64,000 bases of DNA from Streptomyces sp. NBC_01224 (lineage in GTDB: Bacteria; Actinomycetota; Actinomycetes; Streptomycetales; Streptomycetaceae), in assembly GCF_036002945.1 (NCBI RefSeq), contig NZ_CP108529.1, forward strand, positions 372,001 through 436,000, written 5' to 3'. The notes under the pieces were generated by a model, which was not told the origin of the DNA, searched no databases, and saw nothing but the letters and a program-made list of their open reading frames with translations. A program made the translations under genes and the position numbers. Below are positions 29,207 to 62,821 of the stretch, one piece after another (positions within the stretch are counted from its first letter, which is position 1; every line of letters starts with the position of its first letter).

Positions 29207-32200
29207 CTACCGGACGTCGTAGGCGCGGGTGATGGTCTGGGTGACCGCGTTGCCGTTGGCGTCGGTGAAGGTGGCCTTCGTCATGACCTGCTTGCCGGAG
29301 GCGCCGGTGTGGTCGAGGACGGCCGTCCACTTGCCGTCCTGCTGCTCGGTCGGCGCCTGGGTCCAGGTGGTGCCGCCGTCGTAGGAGTAGGACAGCGAGG
29401 CCGCCGTGATCGCGCCCGGGGTGTACCCGGCGTGGCCCTCGACCGACAGGCCGACCTTGATGCCGCTCTGCGCGGGCAGGGTGTTCATGCCGTCCACCGG
29501 CAGGTCGTACGCCGGGTGGAGCAGCGGCAGGCCGCGGGAGTAGACGTCCGGCTCCCGGTGGGAGCGGAAGCTCCAGGTGGTGGTGGCGGCGGTGGAGCGC
29601 AGCCAGTTGCGGTCCGCAGTGTCGATCTTGGCCAGGTTCTGGGTGAGTTCGTACGCGGAGTCCTCGTCCGGCACCTCGAACACGCCGTACGGATAGGTGA
29701 GTCTGCCGATCTGCTCACCGTTGCGCTTCAGCGACATGTTGCCGAGGTCGCCGAAGGACCCGCCGTAGGTCCAGTGGTCGCCGGAGCCGTCGACCCAGAG
29801 GGCGTTCTGGATGCCGAACAGGTTGCCCTGCCGCTCGGCGGCCAGCATCAGGTTGCCGTCGGCATCGCGCGCCGCGCCCGGCCGCAGGGGGCCGCCGTAC
29901 CATTCCTCGGCGCTCCGCTGTCCGGCCTTGTAGGTGCGATCGTGGTCGTCCATGAACGCGGCGAACGGGAAGCTCGTCATCGCGCCGTGGTACCAGGCGT
30001 CGTCGCCGGTCGTGTAGTAGGCGGTGCGGGTGCCAGGCACGTGGACCGTCTGGTACAGGCTCACGGGGATCTGGGTGTCGCTGCTCCCGGAGGGACGGAG
30101 GAACAGCGCGTCGATGTAGTCGGCCTCCTTGCCCATGGCATGCCACGTCTCGGTGACCTGGGCCAGCCGGGAGTCATTCGGCTGGTAGGCCTGGTCGGAG
30201 TGCAGCGGCCCCTCGGTCGGGAACGACAGGTTGTAGACGTAGGACGAGCCGTCCTCGGAGCCGGTCGCGCGCCAGGTGGGCCGGAACTCGAAGGTGCCCT
30301 TGTGAGCGCGCCCGTCGATGTCTGCGTAGAACTTCTTCACGGCGCCGCCGGCCGTGAGTGTTCCGCTGAGCTGCCAGGTGTCGTCCCACGTGCGGGCGTA
30401 GTTCAACGTGGTGCCCTGCAGCGTCGAGGGGCGGTTGGTGTGCAGGCTCAGCTGGTGGGCCTTGCGGGCGTCGAGGACGACGGTGGTGTCCTTGGTGATC
30501 CGCATCTGCGGGTGGGCGAGGTAGCTGACCGATTCGGGCGTGTTGCTCGCGTCGGGCGTCGCCACGAAGCTGCTGAGGGCGTAGTCGCCCGGGCGCACAC
30601 GGTAGATCTGCTCGGACGCACCCGCGTTGGTGCGGCGCTCGCCCTCGTCGGAGTCGATGCTGGCGACGTCCAGGGAGGAGGAGCCGGTCGCGGGCTTGCC
30701 GTTGCGGTCGACGACCTTGACCCGGAGGGTGACCGTCTCCGGCTGGACGTAGAGCGTGACGGGCACGGAGACGTGCACATCGCCGCCGGTGGCCAGGACC
30801 CGGCCGGTGACCGCACCGTACTGGGCGGGCTTCAGACGGGCGGTGGGGTCGATCTGCAGCGGCACCTGAGCGGTGGCCCCCGCCGGGACCGTCACCTTGT
30901 TCTGCTCCGGCTTGATGATTCCGGAGGTGACATCGCTGCCGTCGTTGCCGTGCACACCGCTGAGCTTCAGATGGAGCGTCAGGTTGCTGTCGCTGGTGTT
31001 GGTGAAGGGCACCTGCACGGTGGTGCGGTCCGACGCGTCCTGCGGCCAGTTGTAGCTGCCGGCCTGGACAGCCGGCGCGGAGAGCGCCTTCTGGTTCACC
31101 GCGCCGAACACGTCAAGCACCCCACCGCCGGTCTGGTCGGCGCCGGCGACCTTGCCGCCGGTGCGGGCGGAGGAGACCAGGGCAGCCTTGATCTGCTGCG
31201 CGGTCCAGTCCGGGTGCGCCTGGCGGACGACAGCCGCAGCGCCCGCGACATGCGGGGTGGCCATGGAGGTGCCCGACATCGTCCGGTAGGCATAGACGCC
31301 GCGGCCGCCCGCGGCCGCCGCCGAGATGTCGACGCCGGGGGCGGCGATCTCGGGCTTGAGGGTGTGGGTGACGGCCACCGGACCGCGACTGGAGAACTGC
31401 GCGGTGGTGTCGTCGCGGTCGACGGCGCCCACGGTCAGCACGCCGGGCACACACCCGGGCGAGGAAACGGTCTCGGCGCCCGGGCCGGAGTTGCCGGCGG
31501 CGACGACGAACAGGGTGTGCTTGCTCTTCGACAGCTCCTGCGTGGCCTGGGCCATCGGGTCGGCGCAGTCGCCGATCCTGGGGTTGCCCAGGCTCATGGA
31601 GACGACGTCGGCCTTCTGGTCGACGGCCCACTGCATACCCGCGATGATCCAGGAGTCCAGGCCGTAGCCTGCGTCGTTGAGGACCTTGCCGATGAGCAGG
31701 GAGGAACCGGGGGCGACGCCCTTCTTACGGCCGTCACTCGCCGCTCCGGACCCGCCGACCGTGGAGGCGGTGTGCGTGCCGTGGCCCACATGGTCGTCGG
31801 TGGTCTTGGAATCCGTGAAGTTCTTGGACGCGTCCACCCGGTTCACCAGGTCCGGGTGCTCGGCGTCCACACCCGTGTCCAGCACGGCGACCTTGGTGCC
31901 CTTGCCGTCGTAGCCGGCCGCCCAGGCCTCCGGCGCGTGCACCTGCGCGGTGGACCGGTCCAGCGTGGCCTCGACCTTGCCGTCCAGCCACAGCTTCTTC
32001 AACGTGGAGCCAGAACGTGAGCGCGGGTTCGTGACGTCCTGCCAGAAGGCGGCGGCGGTGTCCTTGCCGGCCCTGAGCGCGACGCCGTCCACAGCCGGGA
32101 GGCTCAGGCCCCGATCGGCTCCGCGCGGAGCCGCCGGCGCGCTGTCGGCGACGTTCACACTGTTCTGGTAAGTGGCAATAAGCGGCAACGTGTCGGTATG

Positions 32201-32590
32201 TGTGTCGTCGTATCCCTGGCGGATGAGCCCGGTGACATTGAACAGCTGCTCGTCGACCTTGCCCTGGGCGATCGCCTGAGAGGCGTCCTCCGGGTAGACG
32301 TAGAGGTCCTTGCCCCTCTGATAGGTCTGCACCATCGGCTGTGTGCCGTCCTTGCGGGGCAGCACCGCCGCCGAGCTGCGACCCGACGTGTCCGTGGTCA
32401 CCATCACCTTGTCGCCGGTGACGAGCGTGACCGTCACCTGCTTGCCACCTGCGGCCTTGCTGCCGATGACGGGCCTCTTCCCCGAGGCACCGTCAGGCGG
32501 AGTGTCCGCCGCGCCGGAAGGCGCGACCGCCGTGACGGCCAGGACGGCGGCGGTCGCCGTGCCCAAGGCCATACGCGTTATGGAACGCAT
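29207..32590 (-). CDS. Secreted S8-family (subtilisin-like) serine peptidase
   Basis: ATG 32590, preceded by AGGGAGA, gives 1127 residues; longer in-frame starts lack a site. The N-terminus MRSITRMALGTATAAVLAVT with AVAPSGAADT is a Sec signal peptide. An ~170-residue propeptide-like region follows. The catalytic triad is complete: Asp238 in VAVLDTGVDAEHPD, His in VGHGTHTAST (about 271) and Ser in MSGTSMATPHVAG (about 442), with the oxyanion Asn in AAGNSGPGA. The remaining ~650 residues are beta-rich, as in large Streptomyces extracellular subtilases. The gene should be expressed for extracellular protein degradation. A TrmB/LuxR regulator lies immediately upstream on the same strand. Confidence 0.93.
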   Translation of the reverse strand: MRSITRMALGTATAAVLAVTAVAPSGAADTPPDGASGKRPVIGSKAAGGKQVTVTLVTGDKVMVTTDTSGRSSAAVLPRKDGTQPMVQTYQRGKDLYVYPEDASQAIAQGKVDEQLFNVTGLIRQGYDDTHTDTLPLIATYQNSVNVADSAPAAPRGADRGLSLPAVDGVALRAGKDTAAAFWQDVTNPRSRSGSTLKKLWLDGKVEATLDRSTAQVHAPEAWAAGYDGKGTKVAVLDTGVDAEHPDLVNRVDASKNFTDSKTTDDHVGHGTHTASTVGGSGAASDGRKKGVAPGSSLLIGKVLNDAGYGLDSWIIAGMQWAVDQKADVVSMSLGNPRIGDCADPMAQATQELSKSKHTLFVVAAGNSGPGAETVSSPGCVPGVLTVGAVDRDDTTAQFSSRGPVAVTHTLKPEIAAPGVDISAAAAGGRGVYAYRTMSGTSMATPHVAGAAAVVRQAHPDWTAQQIKAALVSSARTGGKVAGADQTGGGVLDVFGAVNQKALSAPAVQAGSYNWPQDASDRTTVQVPFTNTSDSNLTLHLKLSGVHGNDGSDVTSGIIKPEQNKVTVPAGATAQVPLQIDPTARLKPAQYGAVTGRVLATGGDVHVSVPVTLYVQPETVTLRVKVVDRNGKPATGSSSLDVASIDSDEGERRTNAGASEQIYRVRPGDYALSSFVATPDASNTPESVSYLAHPQMRITKDTTVVLDARKAHQLSLHTNRPSTLQGTTLNYARTWDDTWQLSGTLTAGGAVKKFYADIDGRAHKGTFEFRPTWRATGSEDGSSYVYNLSFPTEGPLHSDQAYQPNDSRLAQVTETWHAMGKEADYIDALFLRPSGSSDTQIPVSLYQTVHVPGTRTAYYTTGDDAWYHGAMTSFPFAAFMDDHDRTYKAGQRSAEEWYGGPLRPGAARDADGNLMLAAERQGNLFGIQNALWVDGSGDHWTYGGSFGDLGNMSLKRNGEQIGRLTYPYGVFEVPDEDSAYELTQNLAKIDTADRNWLRSTAATTTWSFRSHREPDVYSRGLPLLHPAYDLPVDGMNTLPAQSGIKVGLSVEGHAGYTPGAITAASLSYSYDGGTTWTQAPTEQQDGKWTAVLDHTGASGKQVMTKATFTDANGNAVTQTITRAYDVR

Positions 32591-33032
32591 GAATCTCCCT
32601 ATGTGAGCCATGAACATATGCCAAACTGCGGCTGCAGCCTGGCAGACGTGTGGCTTGATTGGGGATGCCGCGCGTGACGGGTTTCCCACGTGGCGGTATT
32701 CCGTCACGCGGTCACATCAATTGGTTCGTCAGCTCGGTGGATCTTCGGGCCCGGCAGATGGGGGCGCGCTTCGCCGGGCCGACGCTCGCCCGGATGCTCT
32801 CGCCGAAGGGGGCGCACGGGCACATTCACCCGCTCCTTGACCAGCAGCAGTCCCCGGCCTGCCTCAAGCTCCTTCCGTGACGCCGATTCCTCCGGATCCG
32901 TGCGGACTCCGATCCGCCGCCGGGGAACGGGCCCGTCGGCAGTGAAGCAGAACCCCGCCAGGAGTTGGCGGCCACCCTCGCAGGGGCCACCGACGGGACG
33001 GAAGATCCTTGGCTGTCAGGCCGAAGAGGAGG
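32591..33032. other. Upstream region of the subtilase gene
   Basis: This 442-base gap contains no gene I can support. Its subtilase-proximal half is somewhat less GC-rich and should contain that gene's promoter. No clear inverted repeat was found. Confidence 0.35.
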
Positions 33033-49722: not shown

Positions 49723-50152
49723 CGTGGATCGTTCACCCTCGTATGTACGGGGCGAAGTGAGCTGTCCGATACGGAGTGGGCTCGGATGGAGAGCGGCACT
49801 TGTCGCGAAACGTCGGGCGGGATGGGCGGTGAAAGTGTCACCGGAAGGTGATCAAGGGGAGGATTCACTTGGCCGGTGAGGGCGGTCGACGCCCGCTGGA
49901 CCTACTGGTCACACCAAGCTGTGGGGTGACGGCTCGCAGAGGATCCTCGTTCTGGAACGGTTGCGTGTGCCCAGACCGACCGGCGGGCGTCCACGCGCGT
50001 CCCGGCTGCTGACCGCCGACAAAGCGTACTAGCCACGTCGTCACCGCCGTTACCTGCGGCGGCGTCAGATCGGGCTTGCGGTTTCCGCTGCGTCAACTCC
50101 TACGGTCGTCCATGTGGCCGGAGAGACCGGCCCGGCGATGGGAGGCACGGCA
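49723..50152. other. Region with an IS5 relic before the TipA-like gene
   Basis: Apart from the IS5 fragment at 49960-50090, no gene is seen. The part before 49900 may include the IS256 terminal region, but I cannot match an inverted repeat. The promoter for the TipA-like gene should be just before 50150. Confidence 0.4.
49960..50090 (+). pseudogene. IS5-family transposase fragment
   Basis: The plus strand reads RVPRPTGGRPRARP and, after a frame change, LLTADKAY, a TAG stop, then PRRHRRYLRRRQIG. This matches the DDE-region segment (normally ...ADKAYSSR.HRRYLRRRGI) of IS5-group transposases of Streptomyces. It is about 45 codons long and carries an amber stop and a frameshift, so it is dead. 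Confidence 0.65.
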
Positions 50153-50914
50153 ATGGCCTGGTCGATCGCGGATGTGGCCCGGATGTCCGGGGTGACATCC
50201 CGGACGCTGCGGCATTACGACGAGATCGGACTGCTGCCGCCTGCGCGGATCGGAAGCAACGGGCACCGCTACTACGAAGAGGCCGATCTGCTGCGGCTGC
50301 AGCAGATCCTGCTGATGCGGGAGTTGGACCTGGGACTGCGCGAGATCCAGGCGGTTCTGGACAGCCAGGTCGACCAGGTGACTGTGTTGCGCGAGCACCA
50401 CCGGCGGCTGCTCAGGGAGCGTGACCGGCTGGAGACGCTCGTCCGCACGGTCGGGCGGACCATCGCCGAATTGGAGGAGGGGAAGGACAACAACGACATG
50501 GCAAGGATCAACAGGCCGGAGAACCTGTTCGAGGGATTCGAGCACTACTCGGCTGAGGCCGAGGTGCGCGAGCGGTGGCCGAAGGCGTGGGAGCAGTCCC
50601 GACAGGCCATCGAGACGATGACCGCCGAGGATCAGGAGCAGTGGCAGCGTGAGGTCACGGCACAGATGATCCGTATTGCGGAGTTCATGGTGGCCGGCAC
50701 ACCGGTTGCCGATCCTGCGGTGCAGGTCGAAGTGGACGCCCACTACCAGGGCGTCTGCCAGTTCTGGACCCCGGACGCGGCCGCCTACAAGGGACTGGGA
50801 CAGACCTACGTCGATGACCCGCAGATCCGTGCGAACTACGACAAGATCGCCGACGGGCTGGCCGTCTACCAGCGCGACGCGATGGTCGTCTACGCCGATG
50901 CGCGACTGAACTGA
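50153..50914 (+). CDS. MerR-family regulator with TipAS-type effector domain
   Basis: ATG 50153 follows GGGAGG by ten bases and gives 253 residues, the size of TipAL. The MerR helix-turn-helix is WSIADVARMSGVTSRTLRHY with the wing LPPARIGSNGHRYYEEADLL. A dimerising helix follows (about residues 70-115). The C-terminal ~135 residues are a TipAS antibiotic-recognition domain: FEGFEHYSAEAEVRERWPKA, WEQSRQAIETMTAEDQEQWQ, DAHYQGVCQFWTPDAAAYKG and YDKIADGLAVYQRDAM. TipA proteins sense thiopeptides and other ligands and activate transcription, usually of their own gene. An 8-bp hairpin follows the stop. Confidence 0.93.
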   Translation: MAWSIADVARMSGVTSRTLRHYDEIGLLPPARIGSNGHRYYEEADLLRLQQILLMRELDLGLREIQAVLDSQVDQVTVLREHHRRLLRERDRLETLVRTVGRTIAELEEGKDNNDMARINRPENLFEGFEHYSAEAEVRERWPKAWEQSRQAIETMTAEDQEQWQREVTAQMIRIAEFMVAGTPVADPAVQVEVDAHYQGVCQFWTPDAAAYKGLGQTYVDDPQIRANYDKIADGLAVYQRDAMVVYADARLN

Positions 50915-52233: not shown

Positions 52234-52803
52234 TCACTGGCCTACCCTTCCGTCGATGCGCTCGCGCAACAGGTCGGCGTGCCCGCAGTGGCGGGCGTAC
52301 TCCTCGATCCTGTGCACCATCAGTTCCCGAACTGAGGTCCCGTCCTTCCCCAGACGCTCGCTCAGATCCGGGTGCCTGGCCAGCGCGGCGTCGGTCTCGG
52401 CCTGCTCACAATCCAGAGCGGAGTACGCAGCATCGACCTCGGCCTGCTCGGCGACGGCTCCGTCGAAGTCCGCGTCCTTCTCGCCGTACAGCTTCACCAG
52501 TGGATCACCGTCGCTGATCCAGTTCCGCCAGTCCCGTTCCACTTCGGCGAGGTGTCGAAGCAGACCGAGCAGCGACATCGTCGACGGCGGAACCGACCGA
52601 CGGGCCAACTGTTCCGCATCCAGACCCTCGCACTTCATCCGCAGGGTCATGCGGTAGTCCGCCAGGAAGTCCCGCAGCGTCGCGAGCTCGCCGTCCGAAC
52701 TGACTCCTTCGCTGTTGCGCGGGTCGTCGTCCGGGTCAGCCCACATGTCGGGGTGGACGGTTGCTCGGCTCCATCGACCGGGTTGATCACTCATGCGTTC
52801 CAT
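52234..52803 (-). CDS. DinB/DUF664-family protein
   Basis: From ATG 52803 the product is 189 residues; ATG 52794 is an alternative. It has the DinB-like four-helix pattern: TLRDFLADYRMTLRMKCEGL, DAEQLARRSVPPSTMSLLGL, LRHLAEVERDWRNW with the metal-type His, and VRELMVHRIEEYARHCGHAD with the second His pair, then LLRERIDGRVGQ. Members are putative thiol- or metal-dependent transferases; the substrate is unknown. The frame is open upstream to 53019 and reads CDPSAFAQVAGYVGHMSGML there, which could be a further relic or an N-terminal extension. Confidence 0.87.
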   Translation of the reverse strand: MERMSDQPGRWSRATVHPDMWADPDDDPRNSEGVSSDGELATLRDFLADYRMTLRMKCEGLDAEQLARRSVPPSTMSLLGLLRHLAEVERDWRNWISDGDPLVKLYGEKDADFDGAVAEQAEVDAAYSALDCEQAETDAALARHPDLSERLGKDGTSVRELMVHRIEEYARHCGHADLLRERIDGRVGQ

Positions 52804-53338
52804 GTTCGGCCATGAGAGCCCAAGTTGACCAGTGATTTTCCCAAAGGCGATCACCTCCAGACTCCGTTGAGGACCCGGGGCAGGTGTGCCCCCGTCCGGC
52901 TCGCCCATGCCGAGCATGCCGCTCATGTGCCCCACGTACCCGGCCACCTGGGCGAACGCGCTCGGGTCGCAGCCGAGTTGCTTGTGCGCTTCGATCCGAC
53001 CGAGGCGGGCGTACAGCAATGGCCGATGCGGATTCGGTCAGTGATAGTCAACGCTTATGCGCGCTGGTCGAATTGATGCTCGGAAAGTACGTTGGTTGCG
53101 TCCTGTCGGCATGCCAGTGTCATAGGCGCGACGAACAGCGGACCGGTGATCACGAAGGAGGTAGGCAGCGCCTATAAGCTGTGGAACGCCGACGATGGAG
53201 CCGCCATCGGCACGATCCCGGGCGACACCGATTCCACGGCGGTCTTTCGGGGTGCCGAGCCCAGCTGTCGTCGTACAGACCAAAGCCAGCGGACAGACAG
53301 CCTCTGGGAGTGTCGGGTACCGGCGGACCGCTTGCTGG
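52804..53338. other. Region between DinB and CHAT genes
   Basis: No gene is confirmed in these 535 bases. The minus strand upstream of DinB is open (see that entry). Plus-strand 53130-53270 has a WD40-like fragment, KLWNADDGAAIGTIPG, with no start or repeats around it. Both look like leftovers. Confidence 0.35.
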
Positions 53339-56254
53339 TCACACGACGATGCAGGTCATGGCCGCCCACAGCAGGGGCGAGTGCTCGATCCGGCCGCCGG
53401 CGCGCCAGCGGTTGAGCTGCTCGCGCTGCCAGCGGCCGAGCCGGTGTACGGGGTCGCGGTGCTCGTGGGCGGTGTCGACGGCGATGATCGCTTCCGACAG
53501 CGGGCGTACGGACTCGGCCAGGCCGGCCAGCCGGTGGAAGGCGAAGCTGGTGGGCAGTACCCAGCGGGTGGCGGTGACCAGCTCGGCACCGTTGTGGATC
53601 ATCGCTGTCGCCAGGCCGAACGACTCGGCGAACCGCAGATCGCCGCCGCTCTCGCAGCCGATGAGGGCGACACGGGACGGCGCGGGCCAGATCCGCGCAC
53701 CCGGCTCCCCGTCCGCGCGCAGGGGGAGCGTGCCGAGCAGGAGGTCCTTGGCGGACAGCGGCCGATGGGTGCGGATCGGCTCGGCCAGGCCGTCGGTCCC
53801 CTGTCCGCAGCACAGATGGAGCGTGCCGTCCTCGCTCTGCCCGCCCTCGACCGGCGCGCCGCTCACGTGCCCGACGTACATCAGTCTGCGTGCACCCTTG
53901 CGGAGCATGCCGCTCAGCCAGTCCCGGTCCAGGTCGGTGCGGCGGAATGCCTCGGCCGGGGTGGTGACGGACGGTACGACGGTGCCCGTGTCGAGGCGGC
54001 TCTGGACGAACGACAGCAGCTCCGGGTCCGAGTCGGGCGGTCCCAGGACCGAGCCGAGCGAGGAGTCGGCCCGGAATCCGGGCACCCGGGGGTCGAGGAC
54101 GAGAACGACCGTGTCGGCGTCGGTGTCCGCGTCCGGCGTCGGACGCGCGGCCGGATCCTGCCGCTGCAACGACACCGGGGCGGTGGTCACGACGTCTGCC
54201 AGATCGATGAGCCGAACATCGTCGTCGTCGACGGCGAGCAGTTCCCAGGGGACCTGGGCGACCCGGGACGACGGCTGAATCCGTACCAGCGGACGGCCCG
54301 CCCCCGCCGACACCTGACGTATCTGCGTCGTCAGCCCCTCCGGCCACAGCGCCTCGGCCAGCACACGCGCGAGCCGGTGTTCGGTCCGGTGATCGGACAT
54401 CGCTCCCGAGTCGAACGCTCGCCGTATCCCCTCCGCTCCGCCGCCCGCCCCAGGCAGCGCGGCGGCCAGCGCACCGACCGCCTGGTCGACTTCGTCACCG
54501 GGCCCGCGGCCGGTGCCGAATCCCCGGGCCCCGCCGGCCCACGTCCAGGTCATGAACAGGTCCCCGGCGTCGGCCAGCCGGACCTGGACCACCGGGCGGC
54601 TCGTCAGGTCGTCGGTGATCCAGAACGGCACCTCTTCCTCGCTCACGATCGGCCGGTGATAGCGGAACTCGGCCGCCGCGATGTACTCCTGGAGCGCGAC
54701 GCGGCCGGATTCCGGCGGCATCCGCACCTTCGGCGGCGGTGCGACGCGCAGGCCGGCGGAGGCAGCGGCCTCCGCCGCCACCCCCCCGAGCATCATCGGG
54801 CCGTCGCCATGCCCGTATGCCTTCATGGCCGCACTCGGGAAGACCGATTCGGCGGAATCGGCCGACCCGGAGGGCGAGGTGCGCGTCGCCGACAGCGGCG
54901 TACGGTCCAGTGCCAGGGAGGCGCCCGCGCAGCGGTGTTCCACCAGTTCGAAGAGCAGTCCCTGGTCCTGTCGGCGTACGGCGAGGCGGAAGACCAACTG
55001 CATGGCGTCGTCCGCCAGTTCGAGCCACTGACTGCGCGCGTGGGCGGTGACGAAGTCGTAGCGGGCCGCCTCCAGGGCCAGCGCGGCGGGAAGGGCGAGG
55101 GAGAGCGCGGTGCCGATGGACTCCGTCTCGTGGTCGCCGTGGTGCGTGAGGTTCAGGTTGCGCTCAAGAGTTTTCGCGAGCATGAGGTCGACCTGTGCGC
55201 ACCGCTCGTACACCTCCCGTGCCTGGTACACCTCGCGGGCCTCGTGGGCCAGCCGTTTCATCTCCTCGATGTCGCCCCGGTCATGGGCGTGCTGAGCGCC
55301 CAGCAGCATGGTGTCGGCGGCGGCGATCGAGGCGCCTATTCGTTCGAACCGGGCCAGGCTCGCCCCCAGCAGGTCGTCTGCGCCGGTGGTCTCGCCACGC
55401 CGGCCGGCGAGAAAGCCACGGGCCTGTTCACAGACCGCCAGGTCACCGAACCGCCCCTGCCGCTCGAAGACCGCGGATGCCTCGGCGAACAACCGCTCCG
55501 CGAGGTCGAGGTCGCCCCGGTGCATCGCGACGTACGCCCGGTGGGCGACCAGCGACTGCAATTCACCGGTGTCCCCCATCGCCCGGAAACCGTCCTCCGC
55601 GCGGGCGAAGTAGTCCTCGGCCGGATCGAACCGCCCTGTCGAGGCGCAGATCACGCCGAGGGCGGTCAGCAGCCGCGGCACGGTCTCCACGACAGACGCC
55701 GGCAGGGTGGACAGCAGCACCGAGGCCTGTTCCTCGGCCGCTCCCCACTCGCCCCGCTCCATCAGCAGATGCACCCGGTTCAGGCCGAGTTCGGAAGTAC
55801 GCAGCCCCTCGGGATCGTCGAACTCGAGCAGCCGGACCGCCGCCTCGTCCAGACACCCCAGCGCCTCGTCCAGGCGCCCGGTCCTGCGCAGCAGGTCGGC
55901 CCTGGCGAGCAGCGTCTTCAGCCCGATTTCCAGCCACAGTTGACGACCGCGCGGCCCCATCGGCACCGACGCGATGCCGTCGAGCAGGCCGCGGGACCGC
56001 TCGACGGCTTCCTCCGCCCCGACCAGGTCAGTGGCGGTGAGCCGGACGCTCGCGATGTCGGACAGCAGGTGCGCCCGCAGGAACCGCACATCGGGCGAGT
56101 CCTCGATGGACTCGGCCACGGTGAGCAACTCCTCGTAGACGGCGCACGCGGCCCCGGAATCAGCAGCCAGCTGATGCTCCTCGGCCAGGGCGAAGCCGCT
56201 GTCGAACGGCTCCCCGTACAGTTGCGTCACCGCTGCGTTCTCCTCGTCCGGCAT
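53339..56254 (-). CDS. TPR-CHAT domain caspase-like protease
   Basis: The product is 971 residues. Residues ~20-420 are tetratricopeptide-type helices (GRLDEALGCLDEAAVRLLEF, GRFDPAEDYFARAEDGFRAM, GDLDLAERLFAEASAVFERQ). A linker with a possible beta domain follows (~430-640). Residues ~650-970 are a CHAT caspase-like protease. The catalytic dyad is visible: His796 in RRLMYVGHVSGAP and Cys867 in RVALIGCESGGDLRFAESFG. The closing ELVTATRWVLPTSFAFHRLA is also typical. It is the last gene of a tight operon, starting three bases after the 428-residue gene's stop. By analogy to other CHAT proteases, it should cleave a protein target on a signal carried through the TPR region. No gasdermin-like substrate gene is seen nearby. 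Confidence 0.9.
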   Translation of the reverse strand: MPDEENAAVTQLYGEPFDSGFALAEEHQLAADSGAACAVYEELLTVAESIEDSPDVRFLRAHLLSDIASVRLTATDLVGAEEAVERSRGLLDGIASVPMGPRGRQLWLEIGLKTLLARADLLRRTGRLDEALGCLDEAAVRLLEFDDPEGLRTSELGLNRVHLLMERGEWGAAEEQASVLLSTLPASVVETVPRLLTALGVICASTGRFDPAEDYFARAEDGFRAMGDTGELQSLVAHRAYVAMHRGDLDLAERLFAEASAVFERQGRFGDLAVCEQARGFLAGRRGETTGADDLLGASLARFERIGASIAAADTMLLGAQHAHDRGDIEEMKRLAHEAREVYQAREVYERCAQVDLMLAKTLERNLNLTHHGDHETESIGTALSLALPAALALEAARYDFVTAHARSQWLELADDAMQLVFRLAVRRQDQGLLFELVEHRCAGASLALDRTPLSATRTSPSGSADSAESVFPSAAMKAYGHGDGPMMLGGVAAEAAASAGLRVAPPPKVRMPPESGRVALQEYIAAAEFRYHRPIVSEEEVPFWITDDLTSRPVVQVRLADAGDLFMTWTWAGGARGFGTGRGPGDEVDQAVGALAAALPGAGGGAEGIRRAFDSGAMSDHRTEHRLARVLAEALWPEGLTTQIRQVSAGAGRPLVRIQPSSRVAQVPWELLAVDDDDVRLIDLADVVTTAPVSLQRQDPAARPTPDADTDADTVVLVLDPRVPGFRADSSLGSVLGPPDSDPELLSFVQSRLDTGTVVPSVTTPAEAFRRTDLDRDWLSGMLRKGARRLMYVGHVSGAPVEGGQSEDGTLHLCCGQGTDGLAEPIRTHRPLSAKDLLLGTLPLRADGEPGARIWPAPSRVALIGCESGGDLRFAESFGLATAMIHNGAELVTATRWVLPTSFAFHRLAGLAESVRPLSEAIIAVDTAHEHRDPVHRLGRWQREQLNRWRAGGRIEHSPLLWAAMTCIVV

Positions 56255-56257
56255 CCG

Positions 56258-57544
56258 TCAGTAGTCCTCACTGGTGGCAGCAGCGGCGATCTCGGCAAGG
56301 AACAGCCCCGAAGAAGCGTCGTGAGGCGACGCGTCGTACGCCAGGGGCTGTACCGCGGTTGCGAGTCGCCGCCGGACCAGCGCGCGGATCGCGTCGCGGT
56401 CTTCGCGGCCTTCGGGACCCGGACCCGGGTCGAATCCGGGCAGCAGTACACCCACCTCGAAATGCGGCGGCATCGCCCCGGCCGAGAGGTGCAGGTCCAG
56501 ATCCGCCCGACCGGTCCACATGTCGTCCCGTCTGGCGAGGAACACCCGGTCCGATTGGCCACCGTTCACACGGACCTCCGCCACGAGGGGCGCACCGCCG
56601 GCGGGTGCCGCGACGTGCGCGACGACCTCGACCTCGATCCGCCGACGCGCGCCGAGTGCGCGAGCGGTCCAGGACACCGCGTGCTCGGAAGCGTCGACGA
56701 AGCCGGGCGGGTATCGGCGCCAGTCGTTGGTCCCCGAGCCCCGGGCGATCACCCGGCCGCCCGCAAGGAGCGGTTCGCCCGCCGCAAGTGCGTAGCCGTC
56801 GCGCCGTGCGAACAGCGCGCCGGGGCCGACCGGGGCACCGGCCGGACGGCGCTGGTCCAGGGATGAGCGGAGGCGGCGCAGCGCCGCCCCGTCCAGCCCG
56901 GCGCTGTCCGCCGCGTCGTCGATCAGCCGCAGGACGCTCTCCAGGTGGCGTGCCGTGTCCGCCGGCTGTGGTGCCGCGCGCCACCACTGGATCAGCGGGT
57001 CGAGGGCGGCCTGATGCTCCTCGATCAGTTCGGCCACGCAGTCATCGGGCTGATCACCGAAGTCGTCGAACAACTGCTGGCACCGGTGGGTGAGCGCGGC
57101 CAGCTCCAGACCGAGCACGTCCGGTTCGAGCGCCGGTATCCCGTCCTCGTACGACGCCGGCCACCACCGGGACGCCCAGTGCCCGAAGCCGAGCCGGGCG
57201 GCGCCGCCCGCGAGCGGGGTCATGCCCGCCGTCACCCGAACACCGGTCGGCTCCCCTGCCGCGCAGGCGTGCACGGCGGCGGCGGTGCGCTCGCCGTAGA
57301 CCGCCCACAGCCACTGCTGCGCCCGCCCCGCGTCATGCACCTCCGCCACTGGCAGACCCGGTTCCCCGAGGACGGGCCAGACCAGAACCGCGCCCGCCAC
57401 GTCGAGAACGGCCCCGGTGAAGCCGGAACCCACGGCGACCGCGTCGCTGCCGTCCTCGGCCCGGTTGACGACAGGGCCGGCGGCGACCCGGATCGTGCCG
57501 TCCCCGCCCCTCGCGACATGGACGTCGATGCCGGCCTGCGCCAT
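56258..57544 (-). CDS. Unknown 428-aa protein, middle gene of CHAT operon
   Basis: ATG 57544 overlaps the stop of the preceding gene (TGATG), giving 428 residues. I recognise no family. The N-terminus is beta-rich and repetitive in style (DVHVARGGDGTIRVAAGPVV, VGSGFTGAVLDVAGAVLVWP), suggesting a cytosolic beta-barrel or propeller-like module. The centre is helical (ALTHRCQQLFDDFGDQPDDC). The C-terminal third is beta-rich again (RRIEVEVVAHVAAPAGGAPL, GRADLDLHLSAGAMPPHFEV). There is no signal peptide or membrane segment. Coupled translation with both neighbours indicates a stoichiometric complex with the CHAT protease and the 456-residue protein. Confidence 0.8.
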   Translation of the reverse strand: MAQAGIDVHVARGGDGTIRVAAGPVVNRAEDGSDAVAVGSGFTGAVLDVAGAVLVWPVLGEPGLPVAEVHDAGRAQQWLWAVYGERTAAAVHACAAGEPTGVRVTAGMTPLAGGAARLGFGHWASRWWPASYEDGIPALEPDVLGLELAALTHRCQQLFDDFGDQPDDCVAELIEEHQAALDPLIQWWRAAPQPADTARHLESVLRLIDDAADSAGLDGAALRRLRSSLDQRRPAGAPVGPGALFARRDGYALAAGEPLLAGGRVIARGSGTNDWRRYPPGFVDASEHAVSWTARALGARRRIEVEVVAHVAAPAGGAPLVAEVRVNGGQSDRVFLARRDDMWTGRADLDLHLSAGAMPPHFEVGVLLPGFDPGPGPEGREDRDAIRALVRRRLATAVQPLAYDASPHDASSGLFLAEIAAAATSEDY

Positions 57545-58914
57545 CACGCGCTGCTCCGCTCGGCCGCTTCCGCGGCGGTCGCCGACAGCGTGCGCAGCGC
57601 CGACCGGACCCTGGCGCGGTGGTCCATCATCACCGAGCGGGCGACCCCGTCGAGCACCGCCCAGGCCGACGCGATGTCGCCCAGCGGTGCGTCGCGGACA
57701 TCCCGCCCGTGCAGCCGCACCCACAGCCGACGCATATAGGCAGACCAGGGGGTACGGAGGTCCTGGGCGAGGGCGTCCAGGACGCCGCCGTCCGGGTCGG
57801 GGCGGGGAGAAACGGTCATCCGGCGTGCACGAAGAGCCGAAGCCTCCCGTCGCCAGCGGCTGTTGACGGCCCGGTGTGCCGCTGTCCGCCCCAGCGCGGA
57901 ATCCCCGCTGCCCAGCGGATCGAGACCGACCGCGAGCCGGCCGCCGAGGACCACGGCGGCGCGCAGGCTCTCGTCGTACAGACCGAGCGGAGCGCAACTG
58001 CGTCCGACCTCCCGCCCCACGAGCTCAGGCACCGTCGGCAGTTCCTCGCGCCGGGCCGACGACTGCAGAACGACGAAGAGCCGCTCGAAGAGCGTGCGGT
58101 CCAGCGGCGCGGGAAGCGTGGCCGTCGAAGCACCCCGCCCGGCCTCCGGACACGGCGGCACCTGCCACGCGGTCAGCCCCAGATGCACCGGGAGATCGTC
58201 GCGGCCCCAGACACCGCTCGCCTCCGCCCACAGGGCCCGGCCGAACAATCCTCCGTGTCCCGCCTCGACCATGGCCGTGTACTCCGGCGAGTTCCGCGAC
58301 CGCCCCGGCGCGCCGCAGGCTTCCAGCACCTCGGCCGCCAGCACGACCGCCGCGACCGCGTCGGCGGCCGGGGCCGGCTGATGACTCTCCCACGCGGTGG
58401 CCAGCTCCCCATCGAGCCGGGCGCGCCGGACAGCGTCCGCCAGGTGATCTTTCAGCACTTCCACCGTGCGTCCGCCGGCCGCGCCGGCCACGTCCTCCAC
58501 CACCGCCCTGGCCACCGTGTCCGCACCGGCCGAGGGCCTTCCGTGCTCGGTGGCCAGCTCGAAGCAGCGCTGGAAGTACAGATCCTGGGGGTTGCCCGCC
58601 ACGATGCCCAGAGCCCGGCGGGTCCTCTTGAGCAGCGTGAACCACTGTGCCGTCGCCTCAAGACGCGCACCTGACTCCCGGATCAGCGCGTCCAGGCGCG
58701 CGGCCTGCGCCGGTCCGAGGAAGTCGACCGCGAGTTCAGGATGCGTCGCGGGCCTGATGATCAGCGGCAGCACGATCAGCTTGACGGTCCGGGTCAATGG
58801 TGCGCCACCGGGGCCGCTCAGCGACTCCAGCCCCGGCCCGAGGCCACGCCAGGCCCGGTCGATGACCATGGCGCGCGGTCGGCGCTCGCCGGTCTGCTGG
58901 CTCGGAGGCGGCAT
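57544..58914 (-). CDS. Unknown 456-aa protein, first gene of CHAT operon
   Basis: The product is up to 456 residues; ATG 58869 (MVIDRAWRGLGPGLES) is an alternative start and neither has a clear ribosome-binding site. No family is recognised. It is mainly helical: DFLGPAQAARLDALIRESGA, RLEATAQWFTLLKRTRRALG, DALAQDLRTPWSAYMRRLWV and SAWAVLDGVARSVMMDHRAR. A hydrophobic VKLIVLPLIIRPA segment near residue 45 is too short for a membrane helix. Its stop overlaps the next start, so the three genes are co-translated. It may be the sensor or adaptor of the system. The divergent small-protein cluster begins about 110 bases away. Confidence 0.78.
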   Translation of the reverse strand: MPPPSQQTGERRPRAMVIDRAWRGLGPGLESLSGPGGAPLTRTVKLIVLPLIIRPATHPELAVDFLGPAQAARLDALIRESGARLEATAQWFTLLKRTRRALGIVAGNPQDLYFQRCFELATEHGRPSAGADTVARAVVEDVAGAAGGRTVEVLKDHLADAVRRARLDGELATAWESHQPAPAADAVAAVVLAAEVLEACGAPGRSRNSPEYTAMVEAGHGGLFGRALWAEASGVWGRDDLPVHLGLTAWQVPPCPEAGRGASTATLPAPLDRTLFERLFVVLQSSARREELPTVPELVGREVGRSCAPLGLYDESLRAAVVLGGRLAVGLDPLGSGDSALGRTAAHRAVNSRWRREASALRARRMTVSPRPDPDGGVLDALAQDLRTPWSAYMRRLWVRLHGRDVRDAPLGDIASAWAVLDGVARSVMMDHRARVRSALRTLSATAAEAAERSSA

Positions 58915-59022: not shown

Positions 59023-59283
59023 GATGACCAGGACGGTCAACCGCGCGGCATCGGCCGTGGGACGGTCACCTCGGTCGCCGGGCAACCCGTCAGCCGCCCC
59101 GGCGGATCGTCGTACGAGGCGACCGTCCAACGGCCTTTCCCCGCCGGCCTGACCGGCCGCCTCCAGGTCGGCCGCGTCGTCACCGTCCCGTACCTGCCGG
59201 TCGCCGAGAACGAGGTCTCCCTCCGGCTGCCAGCCAACCCCCGTGTCCGAACCGCACCGGACATCACCACAAGGAGAGCCGTC
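59023..59283 (+). pseudogene. Small beta-rich domain with probable frameshift near its start
   Basis: ATG 59023 has an excellent GAGGAGGG site, but its frame ends after 42 nonsense-like codons. A neighbouring frame encodes a convincing domain: GTVTSVAGQPVSRPGGSSYE, then ATVQRPFPAGLTGRLQVG and VVTVPYLPVAENEVSLRLPA. This resembles the same kind of short beta-domain found at the end of the next gene and in DUF3592-like proteins. One base change near 59045 would join them. The corrected frame has no stop before the next gene's ATG and would read into it. Confidence 0.45.
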
Positions 59284-59709
59284 ATGGGAATCTTCAGGAA
59301 ACGTCGCCGGAACCGCGAGGAACGGGCGGCCGAGATCGCCGGCAAGGTGGCCAGCGGCAAAGGCTTCTACGGCCGCGCCACGCGTGCGTTCCTCGGGAAC
59401 GAGGACTTCACCAGAGTCCAGCAGTCGATCGGTGCGTACAACTCCGGCCTGGACGTCCGGCAGTTGCTCGCCATGGGAGCGCCGACCGTACCCGCCGTCG
59501 TCGTATCGATCAGCGACACCGGCAAACTGGTCAACTTCGAGCCGGTCGTCGACCTGGTCCTGCAACCGTCCGGGACCACCGACCGGATCACCCTCCAGAC
59601 CATCGTCTCCAAACTGCGGATCCCCCGCACCGGCGACCAGGTGCTGCTGGTGTCCGACCCCGCCCGGCCCGGCGGATACCTCTACGCCGGGGACGGCGTG
59701 GCACCGTGA
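59284..59709 (+). CDS. Small protein with C-terminal beta-domain, unknown function
   Basis: ATG 59284 follows AAGGAG at ideal spacing, giving 141 residues. The first 30 are very basic (MGIFRKRRRNREERAAEIAG). The second half, VPAVVVSISDTGKLVNFEPV, VDLVLQPSGTTDRITLQTIV and RIPRTGDQVLLVSDPARPGG, is a short beta-barrel-like domain common in Streptomyces small proteins. GTGA overlap couples it to the next gene. Function unknown. Confidence 0.75.
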   Translation: MGIFRKRRRNREERAAEIAGKVASGKGFYGRATRAFLGNEDFTRVQQSIGAYNSGLDVRQLLAMGAPTVPAVVVSISDTGKLVNFEPVVDLVLQPSGTTDRITLQTIVSKLRIPRTGDQVLLVSDPARPGGYLYAGDGVAP

Positions 59710-59984
59710 CCCCGACACCGTTGCACGAGGCGCCGGCGACCGATTCCGTCCTGCTCTCCTTCGACGGCCGGGTGCTGGAGGTGTTCGGCTACACCGACGC
59801 CGCCCGGCACCACATCTGGGAGGAGCCTCGTCTGGAGTTCCGACCCGGCCGAAGCCGCAGACTGACGATCACCACCAAGCACGGCAGACGCCACTCCATC
59901 CCGTACGACCCGCACCGGCTCGTCGGCCTGCAAGCCCTGGCGGACCGGCTGGCGCGGAGCCGACCCGAGGGCTCGGAGCACTGA
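59706..59984 (+). CDS. Small hypothetical protein
   Basis: The product is 92 residues from GTG 59706, which overlaps the previous stop. TDSVLLSFDGRVLEVFGYTD, AARHHIWEEPRLEFRPG and LTITTKHGRRHSIPYDPH suggest a PH-like beta fold ending in one helix (LVGLQALADRLARSR). No family is named with certainty. It is separated from the next gene by one base. Confidence 0.7.
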   Translation: MTPTPLHEAPATDSVLLSFDGRVLEVFGYTDAARHHIWEEPRLEFRPGRSRRLTITTKHGRRHSIPYDPHRLVGLQALADRLARSRPEGSEH

Positions 59985-59985
59985 C

Positions 59986-60471
59986 ATGGCCGACGACGGG
60001 GACAGGGACGAGACCGGCCCCGAGCCAACGCAGATGGCGCAGATATCGCGGGTCGGCCTGGGGGAAACCACATCCCTGTGCATCAGTGCCGCGGTGATGT
60101 GCCTGTGCGGTCCGGTCATGCTGGGCTTCGCCGTCCTCACCGGCGCGGAGCTCATGGTCATGGGCATCGTGTTCACGGTGGTCTTTGTTCCCCTGGGCCT
60201 GGGGCTCTGCGGCAACGCTGTCGTGGAGAGAGAGCACAACCGGCGGCTCGACGCCGTCGGGGTTCCGGCGACCGCGGAGATCACCGACCTGACCGACTTC
60301 GACTGGAGCGGGGAGGAATCCGGCGTCACGGTCGGTCTACGGGTCAGCGGGCCGGGGTTGCGGACGTTCGAGACGACCTGGAAGCGCACGCACCATCCCG
60401 CCCTGCGCGTAGGTCTTCGGCTCCCAGCCGTCGTCGACCCGTCCGGCGGCCGGTTCCGTGTCGAGTTCTGA
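59986..60471 (+). CDS. DUF3592-like membrane protein
   Basis: The product is 161 residues. Two membrane helices lie at about residues 30-50 and 55-77 (SAAVMCLCGPVMLGFAVLTG, VMGIVFTVVFVPLGLGLCG). The cytosolic or external domain (ATAEITDLTDFDWSGEESGV, TVGLRVSGPGLRTFETTWKR, LRLPAVVDPSGGRFRVEF) has the DUF3592-type beta pattern. It is part of the co-directional small-protein cluster. Confidence 0.78.
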   Translation: MADDGDRDETGPEPTQMAQISRVGLGETTSLCISAAVMCLCGPVMLGFAVLTGAELMVMGIVFTVVFVPLGLGLCGNAVVEREHNRRLDAVGVPATAEITDLTDFDWSGEESGVTVGLRVSGPGLRTFETTWKRTHHPALRVGLRLPAVVDPSGGRFRVEF

Positions 60472-60551
60472 GCGGGCTCGCCCGCGGAGGGGGCAGCGGT
60501 GACTGCGCGGCGGCGAAGTCTGCTCAGGGGTCCTAGTCGTAGGTGGGGAAG

Positions 60552-61406
60552 ATGAGCAGTTACGAGGTACTGGGGCTGTGGTGGGTGGTGCCCGCGGGGC
60601 TGGCGCTGCTCGGCTACGGGCGCTCGCTCGCCGGGGTGACCCGGGCCCAGCGAGCGGTATGGGTCAAGGCGCGGATCGTAGAAGTGGAGCAGCCGGCCCA
60701 CGGCGACTCCAAGAGGCCCGGGATACCGGTGACGATCGCGTTCCAGGACCCGGCCACCGGGCAGGAGTTCACCCTGCCGAACGCAGGCAAGCACGGCGAC
60801 GCGGTCCAGGAAGCCTGGGTAGGCAGGGAACTTGACGTGCGCTACCCATCCGGGCAACCGCACCGGTTCCTCATCGTGATCGACACCGCGGGCGAGAAGA
60901 GCGGACGCAAGGGCCCCGACTGCGCGGTCGTCCTGCTCCTCATCGGGCTGGTGATCCATGCGACCGTCGTCTGGGGCTACCCGTGGGCACTGCTCGGCTT
61001 CGGTGCCCTGCTGACCGCCCTCGCGGCGATCAGCCCCGACATTCGCATGGTGCGCGCCCGCAACGCCCTGCTGGCCTCGGCCGTCGCCGTCCCGGCGCGT
61101 GTCGTGGCCGTCACCAAGGACATCTACACCGACGGAGAGGCCGGCGAGATCGTCAACCACGCCCCCGTCGTCACCTTCACCACCCGTCAGGGCACCCATG
61201 TCACTGTGCTGTCCCGCGACGGCATCCCCGAACCGGGCCTGTCCCTCGGCCGCGACCTCACCATCCACTACGCCCCCAAGGACCCGGCCGTCTACACGCC
61301 CGACCCCGCAGCCGACCGCCGCTCCGGAGCGAAGAGCATCGCCTTCATCGTCACCCTCCTGCTCACCGGAACAGCGGCGATCGTGACCGGCGCGGCCACG
61401 CTGTGA
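60552..61406 (+). CDS. DUF3592-like membrane protein with two repeated domains
   Basis: From ATG 60552 (GTG 60543 in frame is likely part of the ribosome-binding region GGTGGGGAAG) the product is 284 residues. It has an N-terminal helix ([19 protein letters not shown]), a first beta-domain ([50 protein letters not shown]) and two central helices ([20 protein letters not shown]). A second beta-domain follows ([53 protein letters not shown]) with a final helix. The duplicated layout is typical of Streptomyces DUF3592 proteins of unknown function. Confidence 0.82.
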
Positions 61407-61849
61407 CGCCTCAGGCCTCGTCGCAGGGCGAGGCACCGGCACCGCCCGCGTCGCCGGGTACCGCTGCCAGGGCTACGCCTCGCAGGTCAGCGCCGCCTGG
61501 ACCTTCCAGCCCCGGCAGACCCAAACATCCGCGCCGTGGTCATCAACATCCGCGCCGTGGTCATCGCCGACCTCCATCGGCACCGCATGGGCGGCCAACC
61601 CATCTGGAAGCCAAGGGCCATCGGCCAGGGCTGGGCCGGGCTGGGCTGACAGCCTCGACGGACTCGCCCACGCGCACGGAGTCGACATCGAGTGACAACA
61701 TCGTCGGCTCGCTCAGCCACGACTGCAGATCTCAGTCCCCGACATACTTCTTCCTGGCCACACACAACCCTAGTGACGGCACCTCGTGCCGAACGCGCAC
61801 ACCAAGCACCGACGATGCACGGAACCTCGGAACAGAAGGCCCACACATC
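61407..61849. other. Region between DUF3592 and beta-lactamase genes
   Basis: No intact gene is seen. It contains the 21-bp tandem repeat listed separately. A weakly protein-like plus-strand frame reads [20 protein letters not shown]. The beta-lactamase promoter should lie near 61750-61830, which is less GC-rich. Confidence 0.4.
61524..61565. repeat. Two perfect tandem copies of a 21-bp unit
   Basis: The unit AACATCCGCGCCGTGGTCAT plus C occurs at 61524-61544 and again, identical, at 61545-61565. It lies in non-coding sequence. The period of 21 keeps any reading frame. It is probably a replication-slippage duplication. Confidence 0.9.
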
Positions 61850-62821
61850 ATGCACTCTCGCCCCCCTGTCCCCCGTCGTGGTGCTCTCGCCACACTGGCC
61901 GGGCTCGCGGCCTTGCCACTCTCCGGATGCACGGCCACGCCGGATGCCGCCTCCCCGAGTCCGTCGGGCACGACTCCACCCGCCACCGTGCCCGCCGCAT
62001 CGGCACCGGTCGATCCGCATACGGAGCACGCATTCGGCGAAATGGAGCGGAACTTCGACGCCCGGTTGGGGGTGTACGCCCTCGACACCGGCAGCGGCCG
62101 GACCGTCACCCACCGGCCCGACGAACGCTTCGCCTACGCCTCCACCTGCAAGGCGTTGCTTGCCGCCGCCATGCTGGACAAGCACTCCCTCCGGCAGATG
62201 GACCGGCTCGTGCGTTACGGCCGCGACGATCTCATCAGCAACTCGCCGATCGCTGAGAAGCACGTCGCCACCGGACTGACCCTGCGTGAGTTGTGCGACG
62301 CCGCCATCCGCTACAGCGACAATGCCGCGGCCAACCTCCTCTTCCACGAACTGGGCGGCCCTCGGGGCCTGCAGGACGCTCTCCGCGCGCTCGGTGACGA
62401 CGTCACCCGCTGCGACCGCTACGAAGCCGACCTCAGCGAGGCCGCCCCCGGTGACCTCCGTGACACCAGCACACCCCGCGCCCTGGCCACGGATCTGAAA
62501 GCGTACGTCCTCGGCACCACGCTCCCCGCGGACAAGCGGGCTGTGCTGACCGACTGGCTCAAGCGCAACACGACCGGCGACAACACCATCCGCGCAGGCG
62601 CCCCCGACGGGTGGCAGGTCGGGGACAAGACCGGCACTGGAGGCTACGGCACACGCAACGACATCGCCATCGTCTGGCCCCCGGGCGCCGCCCCCGTCGC
62701 CCTCGCCGTCCTCTCCCGCCGCGACACCAAGAACGCCGAACGCGACGACGCGCTCATCGCCCGCGCCGCCGAGGTCGCCCTCGAAGCAATTGCCCGGGGC
62801 TCGCAGTCACGGCCCGGTTGA
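61850..62821 (+). CDS. bla: Class A beta-lactamase, lipoprotein with Tat-like signal
   Basis: The product is 323 residues from ATG 61850. The signal [20 protein letters not shown] contains a twin-Arg and ends in a lipobox (LSGC), so export and lipid anchoring are expected. Class A motifs are complete: Ser98-x-x-Lys101 in [16 protein letters not shown] at 156-158 in [10 protein letters not shown], the omega-loop Glu192 in [12 protein letters not shown] followed by LRDTSTP, and KTG from Lys260 in [15 protein letters not shown]. The residue usually Asn in ExxLN is Ser196 here. That Asn helps position the deacylating water, so catalysis may be altered. The enzyme hydrolyses penicillin-type beta-lactams outside the membrane. 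A strong terminator follows. Confidence 0.94.

Follow-up and report, generated by a model that had tools for sequence, protein, structure and literature searches.

A minus-strand operon in the window (the whole 64,000-nucleotide stretch of Streptomyces sp. NBC_01224 DNA analyzed here) may encode an undescribed, adaptor-controlled, envelope-linked CHAT protease module, a reading to which we assign a probability of about 0.5 from comparison of related loci. CHAT proteases are bacterial cousins of caspases, and we know of few regulators for them. Strong comparative evidence ties the CHAT protease encoded here to two unannotated protein families and to envelope proteins, one of the latter being a paralogue from the mycobacterial 19-kDa antigen family. 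The module is common in Mycobacterium, where it has one gene order, and could therefore reveal the role of a caspase-like protease in that genus. The window covers 372–436 kb of its contig (C1), near one contig end and on a chromosome arm.

The original prediction described three genes (here A, B, and the TPR-CHAT gene, all on the minus strand; Table 1) joined by an overlap and a three-base gap, and this arrangement was confirmed. Base 57544 is common to A and B, and 3 bases (56255–56257) separate B from the TPR-CHAT gene. An A/B overlap of 1 or 4 bases was found in 31 of the 33 loci having both genes, and of 31 Streptomyces loci, 24 have a gap of exactly 3 bases between B and CHAT. Codon position 3 takes most of the between-species substitutions in the operon genes. 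A 1223-aa plus-strand ORF running across TPR-CHAT was dismissed as an antisense artifact and not a gene.

Table 1. Features of the operon and its divergent neighbors, with examples of the linked lipoprotein gene. Coordinates are window positions unless a locus is named.
Feature	Position	Strand	Remarks
Gene A	57544..58914	(-)	456 aa; no family match, predicted all-helical, without transmembrane segment
Gene B	56258..57544	(-)	428 aa; no family match
Conserved C-terminal peptide of B, FLAEIAAAATSEDY-COOH	56261..56302	(-)	after variable linker
TPR-CHAT gene	53339..56254	(-)	971 aa; TPR_12 and PF12770 matches
TPR part of TPR-CHAT	about 54620-56254	(-)	
CHAT part of TPR-CHAT	about 53339-54619	(-)	
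Predicted catalytic His796 codon (YVGH)	53867..53869	(-)	His in 41/41 homologues
Predicted catalytic Cys867 codon (C.SG)	53654..53656	(-)	Cys in 41/41 homologues
Decayed M remnant (C-terminal about 50 codons)	59089..59238	(+)	M profile E = 1e-9, 33.5 bits
D1	59284..59709	(+)	141 aa; divergent neighbor of A
D2	59706..59984	(+)	92 aa; about 13/32 loci
D3	59986..60471	(+)	161 aa; two predicted transmembrane segments; often present
D4	60543..61406	(+)	287-aa membrane protein, DUF3592-like
Lipoprotein gene, locus L073	13330-13893	(-)	
Lipoprotein gene, locus L081	4042-4527	(+)	
Lipoprotein gene, locus L033	7669-8439	(-)	

The CHAT half of the fused protein (residues 546–971) matched PF12770 with 39.1 bits (cut-off 24), and the same family was matched by 11 of 14 homologues, the best at 3.1e-17; with the full-length chain as query, the search filters let this match slip. 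The predicted His796/Cys867 dyad is intact, with the histidine in the context YVGHVSG and the cysteine in LIGCESG, and the pair is invariant in the 41 sequences compared, which upholds the original assignment. TPR repeats were recognized in the other half (TPR_12). By these matches, TPR-CHAT is a caspase-like (CHAT) protease with an intact dyad and predicted activity. TPR and CHAT are two genes in Mycobacterium, Nocardia, and others, and one fused gene in loci of the window type. In nine Streptomyces species (loci L002, L019, L022–L024, L026–L028, and L030), the fused gene is split again by a one-base change at an identical junction; the split point follows EEEVPFW, a GTG re-start lies a few bases on in most, and both halves are still conserved. 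A programmed frameshift was considered for these nine species and rejected, as no slippery site was seen and an indel of one base followed by re-initiation explains the split more simply. The genome has a second CHAT-domain gene (L036, G000 C1 3057267-3057620), which also exceeds the Pfam cut-off.

The partner proteins A and B had no match in Pfam, NCBIfam, PADLOC, or PDB sequences, whether single sequences or diverse alignments were used, in line with the claim that they belong to no known family. The invariant motifs of A include RLW.RLHGRD, near its C terminus, and those of B are GHW..RWWPAS, ALAAG, and W..PPG..DA. B is predicted to consist of an α/β N-terminal part and a β-sandwich-like C-terminal part. 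In most genera, its tail reads F/L-x-AE-x-x-A...(D/E)Y/F at the C terminus; this tail is not conserved in the g37, L084, and L070 versions. The tail has the form of a docking motif, for which the TPR arm would be the obvious putative receptor, and we infer that A and B serve as adaptors or regulators of the CHAT protease. The AlphaFold check proposed for both partners did yield models, but these were built from shallow alignments and are of low confidence (pLDDT 59 for A and 60 for B), and fold searches with them returned nothing usable. A weak match of B to a CBM56 β-sandwich (E 0.025) came from such a low-confidence model and was set aside.

A scan with B returned 34 loci, nearly all from Streptomyces, and wherever the contig allows, A lies directly upstream of B and TPR-CHAT directly downstream in these loci. 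A, B, TPR, and CHAT occur together in essentially every intact locus covered by the analysis, namely 33 of the Streptomyces type and about 40 from other genera. All four components are carried by 19 of 20 loci from other lineages (two divergent Streptomyces versions included), the exception being a fragment of A, and by the enlarged set of 42 loci apart from the A fragment and L137, where TPR was undetected. Among 395 genomes of the class, A is present in 33 and B in 33, with 32 genomes common to both; the sole mismatches are a 65-residue fragment of A and a 28-residue match to B at a contig edge. In a phylum-wide sample of 297 genomes, A was confined to genomes of this class. A was detected in 12 of 150 Streptomyces genomes sampled (8%) and in 97 of 149 Mycobacterium genomes sampled (65%), the latter set being assigned to Mycobacterium because of its strong PPE genes and bifunctional LysX. 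The cassette is also carried by five Streptomyces megaplasmids and one Nocardia record. In five Mycobacterium genomes (G562, G577, G573, G649, and G626), the match to A is fragmentary or broken into pieces, suggesting either that the module is decaying in some species or that the fragmented assemblies have gaps.

Two gene orders were found: A-B-TPR-CHAT in Streptomyces, Nocardia, and others, vs. TPR-CHAT-A-B in Mycobacterium. Distances in the A, B, and CHAT trees are correlated (r = 0.90–0.96, Mantel p = 0.0005), so the genes travel together. In Streptomyces, locus L084 clusters with g37 sequences in the A, B, and CHAT trees, and a second locus, L070, falls near Nocardia in two of the three; these positions indicate transfer. 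Collectively, the genome comparisons show A, B, TPR, and CHAT to be a single evolutionary unit that is relocated and lost as a whole. A fixed gene group had been predicted, with gene-order conservation across actinomycetes named as the test, and order, spacing, and co-occurrence are indeed conserved across loci.

The prediction of a three-gene operon was correct in that the three genes are real, but three are too few. Judged by conserved linkage, the gene M for a membrane protein is part of the cassette as well, and the Mycobacterium and Nocardia versions add a gene for a lipoprotein; the best evidence that both belong is that they are kept through relocation of the module. The lipoprotein gene, of the Myco_19_kDa family, is linked in every one of the 29 loci from Mycobacterium and in four from Nocardia, and linked lipoproteins scored 101.9 and 59.7 bits against PF05481 (cut-off 23). 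The cassette lipoprotein of these genera is thus a member of the 19-kDa lipoprotein antigen family and a linked paralogue within it, whereas Streptomyces loci, like those of other lineages, lack the gene. No link between this family and a protease module was found among the open-access papers searched. The order in the 29 Mycobacterium loci is lipoprotein-TPR-CHAT-M (opposite strand)-A-B, with few gaps: M was undetected in two loci (present in 27/29) and TPR in one. The cassette has at least two chromosomal addresses in Mycobacterium, at uvrA/lysX in 18 of the 29 loci, beside a second conserved gene in 8, and elsewhere in 3. The loci in which it lies between uvrA and lysX-infC are L073, L077–L079, L083, L123, L124, L126–L130, L133, L134, L136, and L138–L140.

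In most lineages other than that of the window, M lies immediately 5′ of A on the other strand, and Mycobacterium and Nocardia are among those with an intact copy there; the M profile matches 34 of 42 loci. The M protein has an N-terminal hydrophobic segment, recognized by sequence inspection, and one or two domains resembling DUF3592 (PF12158). Against the cut-off of 25.3 for that family, D4 scored 23.8 bits and Nocardia M 16.0 bits. Remnants similar to the one in the window are present in L002 and L021. The original prediction also drew attention to a divergent cluster starting 110 bases away; the link is real, with D1, which takes the place of M in Streptomyces, found in every one of the 32 Streptomyces-type loci whose sequence covers the region 5′ of A, but the starting point was wrong, and the cluster's products are at most candidate proteolysis targets. 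The plus-strand ORF about 110 bases from A lies within the decayed M remnant and does not mark where the conserved neighbor begins, and the first conserved divergent gene is D1, which begins 369 bases from A. D1 is found in one further family (L072, E = 1e-36). A single hhalign comparison (P 8.7e-4) hints that D1 may be distantly related to the second domain of M; this result is only suggestive and was not accepted as proof of homology. D4 is linked in 20 of 32 loci and lies on the other side of the operon in 8 of those 20. Neither M nor D1 was found in g37 loci. The envelope link is not universal, because Streptomyces and other lineages lack the lipoprotein gene, M has decayed in the window, and M and D1 were undetected in g37.

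In the reading we prefer, that of an adaptor-controlled, envelope-linked protease, A and B would form a complex with the TPR arm, with the C-terminal peptide of B docking into a TPR (or CHAT) surface, and this complex would keep the protease inactive until a signal arrives. An envelope signal is suggested because the module contains a membrane protein and a lipoprotein; sensed at the cell envelope via M, D4, or the lipoprotein, it would free the protease to cut one or a few host proteins. The outcome might be an envelope-stress response, phage defense, or cell death. A physiological role is favored by how common the cassette is in Mycobacterium and by its unvarying gene order there; its patchy occurrence and transfer in Streptomyces favor a role in conflict. 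A more specific version is held only tentatively, namely an undescribed envelope-to-cytoplasm caspase-like cassette (lipoprotein, TPR, CHAT, M, and the new families A and B) in which envelope damage frees a cytoplasmic protease and leads to a stress programme or death. If correct, such a cassette would exist in most sampled Mycobacterium species and be mobile among actinomycetes, and damage to the surface or envelope, for example by phage or antibiotic, would set off the protease.

Among described systems, CATRA (caspase/TPR-associated, PF20270) is a multi-gene, caspase-dependent conflict system (PMC8195603), and by its name and published description it resembles the cassette in both respects. 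Membership in CATRA was ruled out by PF20270, by CATRA loci, and by profile comparison. The CATRA-C domain has no match in A or B, the best score in the genome being 15.6 bits, elsewhere and below cut-off. A and B have no detectable similarity to the CATRA-C and GT4 proteins of L101–L112 (<1% probability in profile comparison), and the TPR-CHAT profile finds nothing at E ≤ 1 in 12 CATRA loci. The lack of similarity to CATRA proteins agrees with the expectation that the partners are not domains of an already described CHAT system. One actinomycete genome (G111) has four CATRA-C loci (L101, L106, L109, and L110); the L101 protein ends, by inspection, in a GT4-glycosyltransferase-like region, and several CATRA proteins have GT4-type regions. 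EACC1-caspase and other ternary conflict systems of multicellular prokaryotes that depend on caspases (Kaur et al. 2020, PMC7159879) likewise pair a peptidase of the caspase superfamily with a constant set of partners that includes a membrane-associated one, although EACC1 is a single-TM protein and the caspase there has variable effector domains, neither of which was seen in the cassette. Pfam scans of A, B, and D1–D4, with a library that may lack an EACC1 model, gave no EACC1 or EAD match, and vWA/MoxR had no match in the cassette. A search of the open-access literature returned no paper on mycobacterial or streptomycete CHAT operons or on this gene group.

An antiphage or abortive-infection system, in which A and B would detect infection and the CHAT protease would respond by killing or arresting the cell, is a possible but doubtful alternative. 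It would account for the patchy occurrence in Streptomyces (12/150), the site on a chromosome arm here and on megaplasmids in other Streptomyces, and the horizontally mosaic versions L070 and L084, and Craspase is one of the known conflict systems in which a CHAT protease acts (PMC10028731). However, no core component matches a known antiphage system in PADLOC-DB 2.0.0, no convincing defense genes occur among the neighbors tested, and no relative of the cassette was found in IMG/VR viral contigs. Weak PADLOC matches among the neighbors proved to be an ABC-transporter ATPase and a subtilase, which do not point to a defense island. A prevalence of 65% in Mycobacterium, with constant order and often a single address, would also be unusual for a defense cassette. 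The earlier proposal of a role in cell death or phage defense is unsupported.

Rather less likely is a regulatory protease that cleaves an inhibitor protein and so controls transcription or development, as Csx29 cuts Csx30, with A as a candidate substrate. The analogy has some appeal, since Csx29, the protease of Craspase, cuts an operon-encoded sigma-factor inhibitor once its RNA-guided partner binds target RNA (PMC10028731); the TPR-CHAT architecture equals that of Csx29, including the N-terminal TPR arm, the C-terminal CHAT protease, and the His/Cys dyad, and A is predicted to be helical and is co-encoded. Control of the protease by partner proteins is probable in the cassette too. Against this proposal, the conserved unit has no sigma factor gene, and the A, B, and CHAT profiles match no PDB sequence, any Csx proteins in the PDB included. 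Actual kinship with type III-E CRISPR-Craspase, suggested by TPR and CHAT in a single protein, is barely conceivable: there is no CRISPR repeat array at 50–64 kb, no cas gene (Cas7-11 and Csx30/31 included) was found among the neighbors tested, A and B are unrelated by sequence to the Craspase partners, and the CHAT profile reaches no PDB chain. The lack of a known function for any of the genes could point to simple hitchhiking, with an orphan TPR-CHAT gene beside unrelated hypothetical genes; this is very improbable, being contradicted by co-occurrence, spacing, tree congruence, and joint relocation, and is refuted as far as linkage is concerned.

The window also holds several other genes. 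Downstream of the operon are a gene for a TipAS/MerR drug-sensing regulator (50114-50914, plus strand) and a mycothiol-S-transferase/DinB-family gene (52234-53019, minus strand), for neither of which a conserved link was seen. A subtilase-family protein of 1166 aa is encoded at 29207-32707 (minus strand). The divergent cluster ends in a class A β-lactamase-family gene (61847-62821, plus strand) that had no match in related loci, and just upstream of it is a perfect two-copy 21-bp tandem direct repeat (61524-61565).
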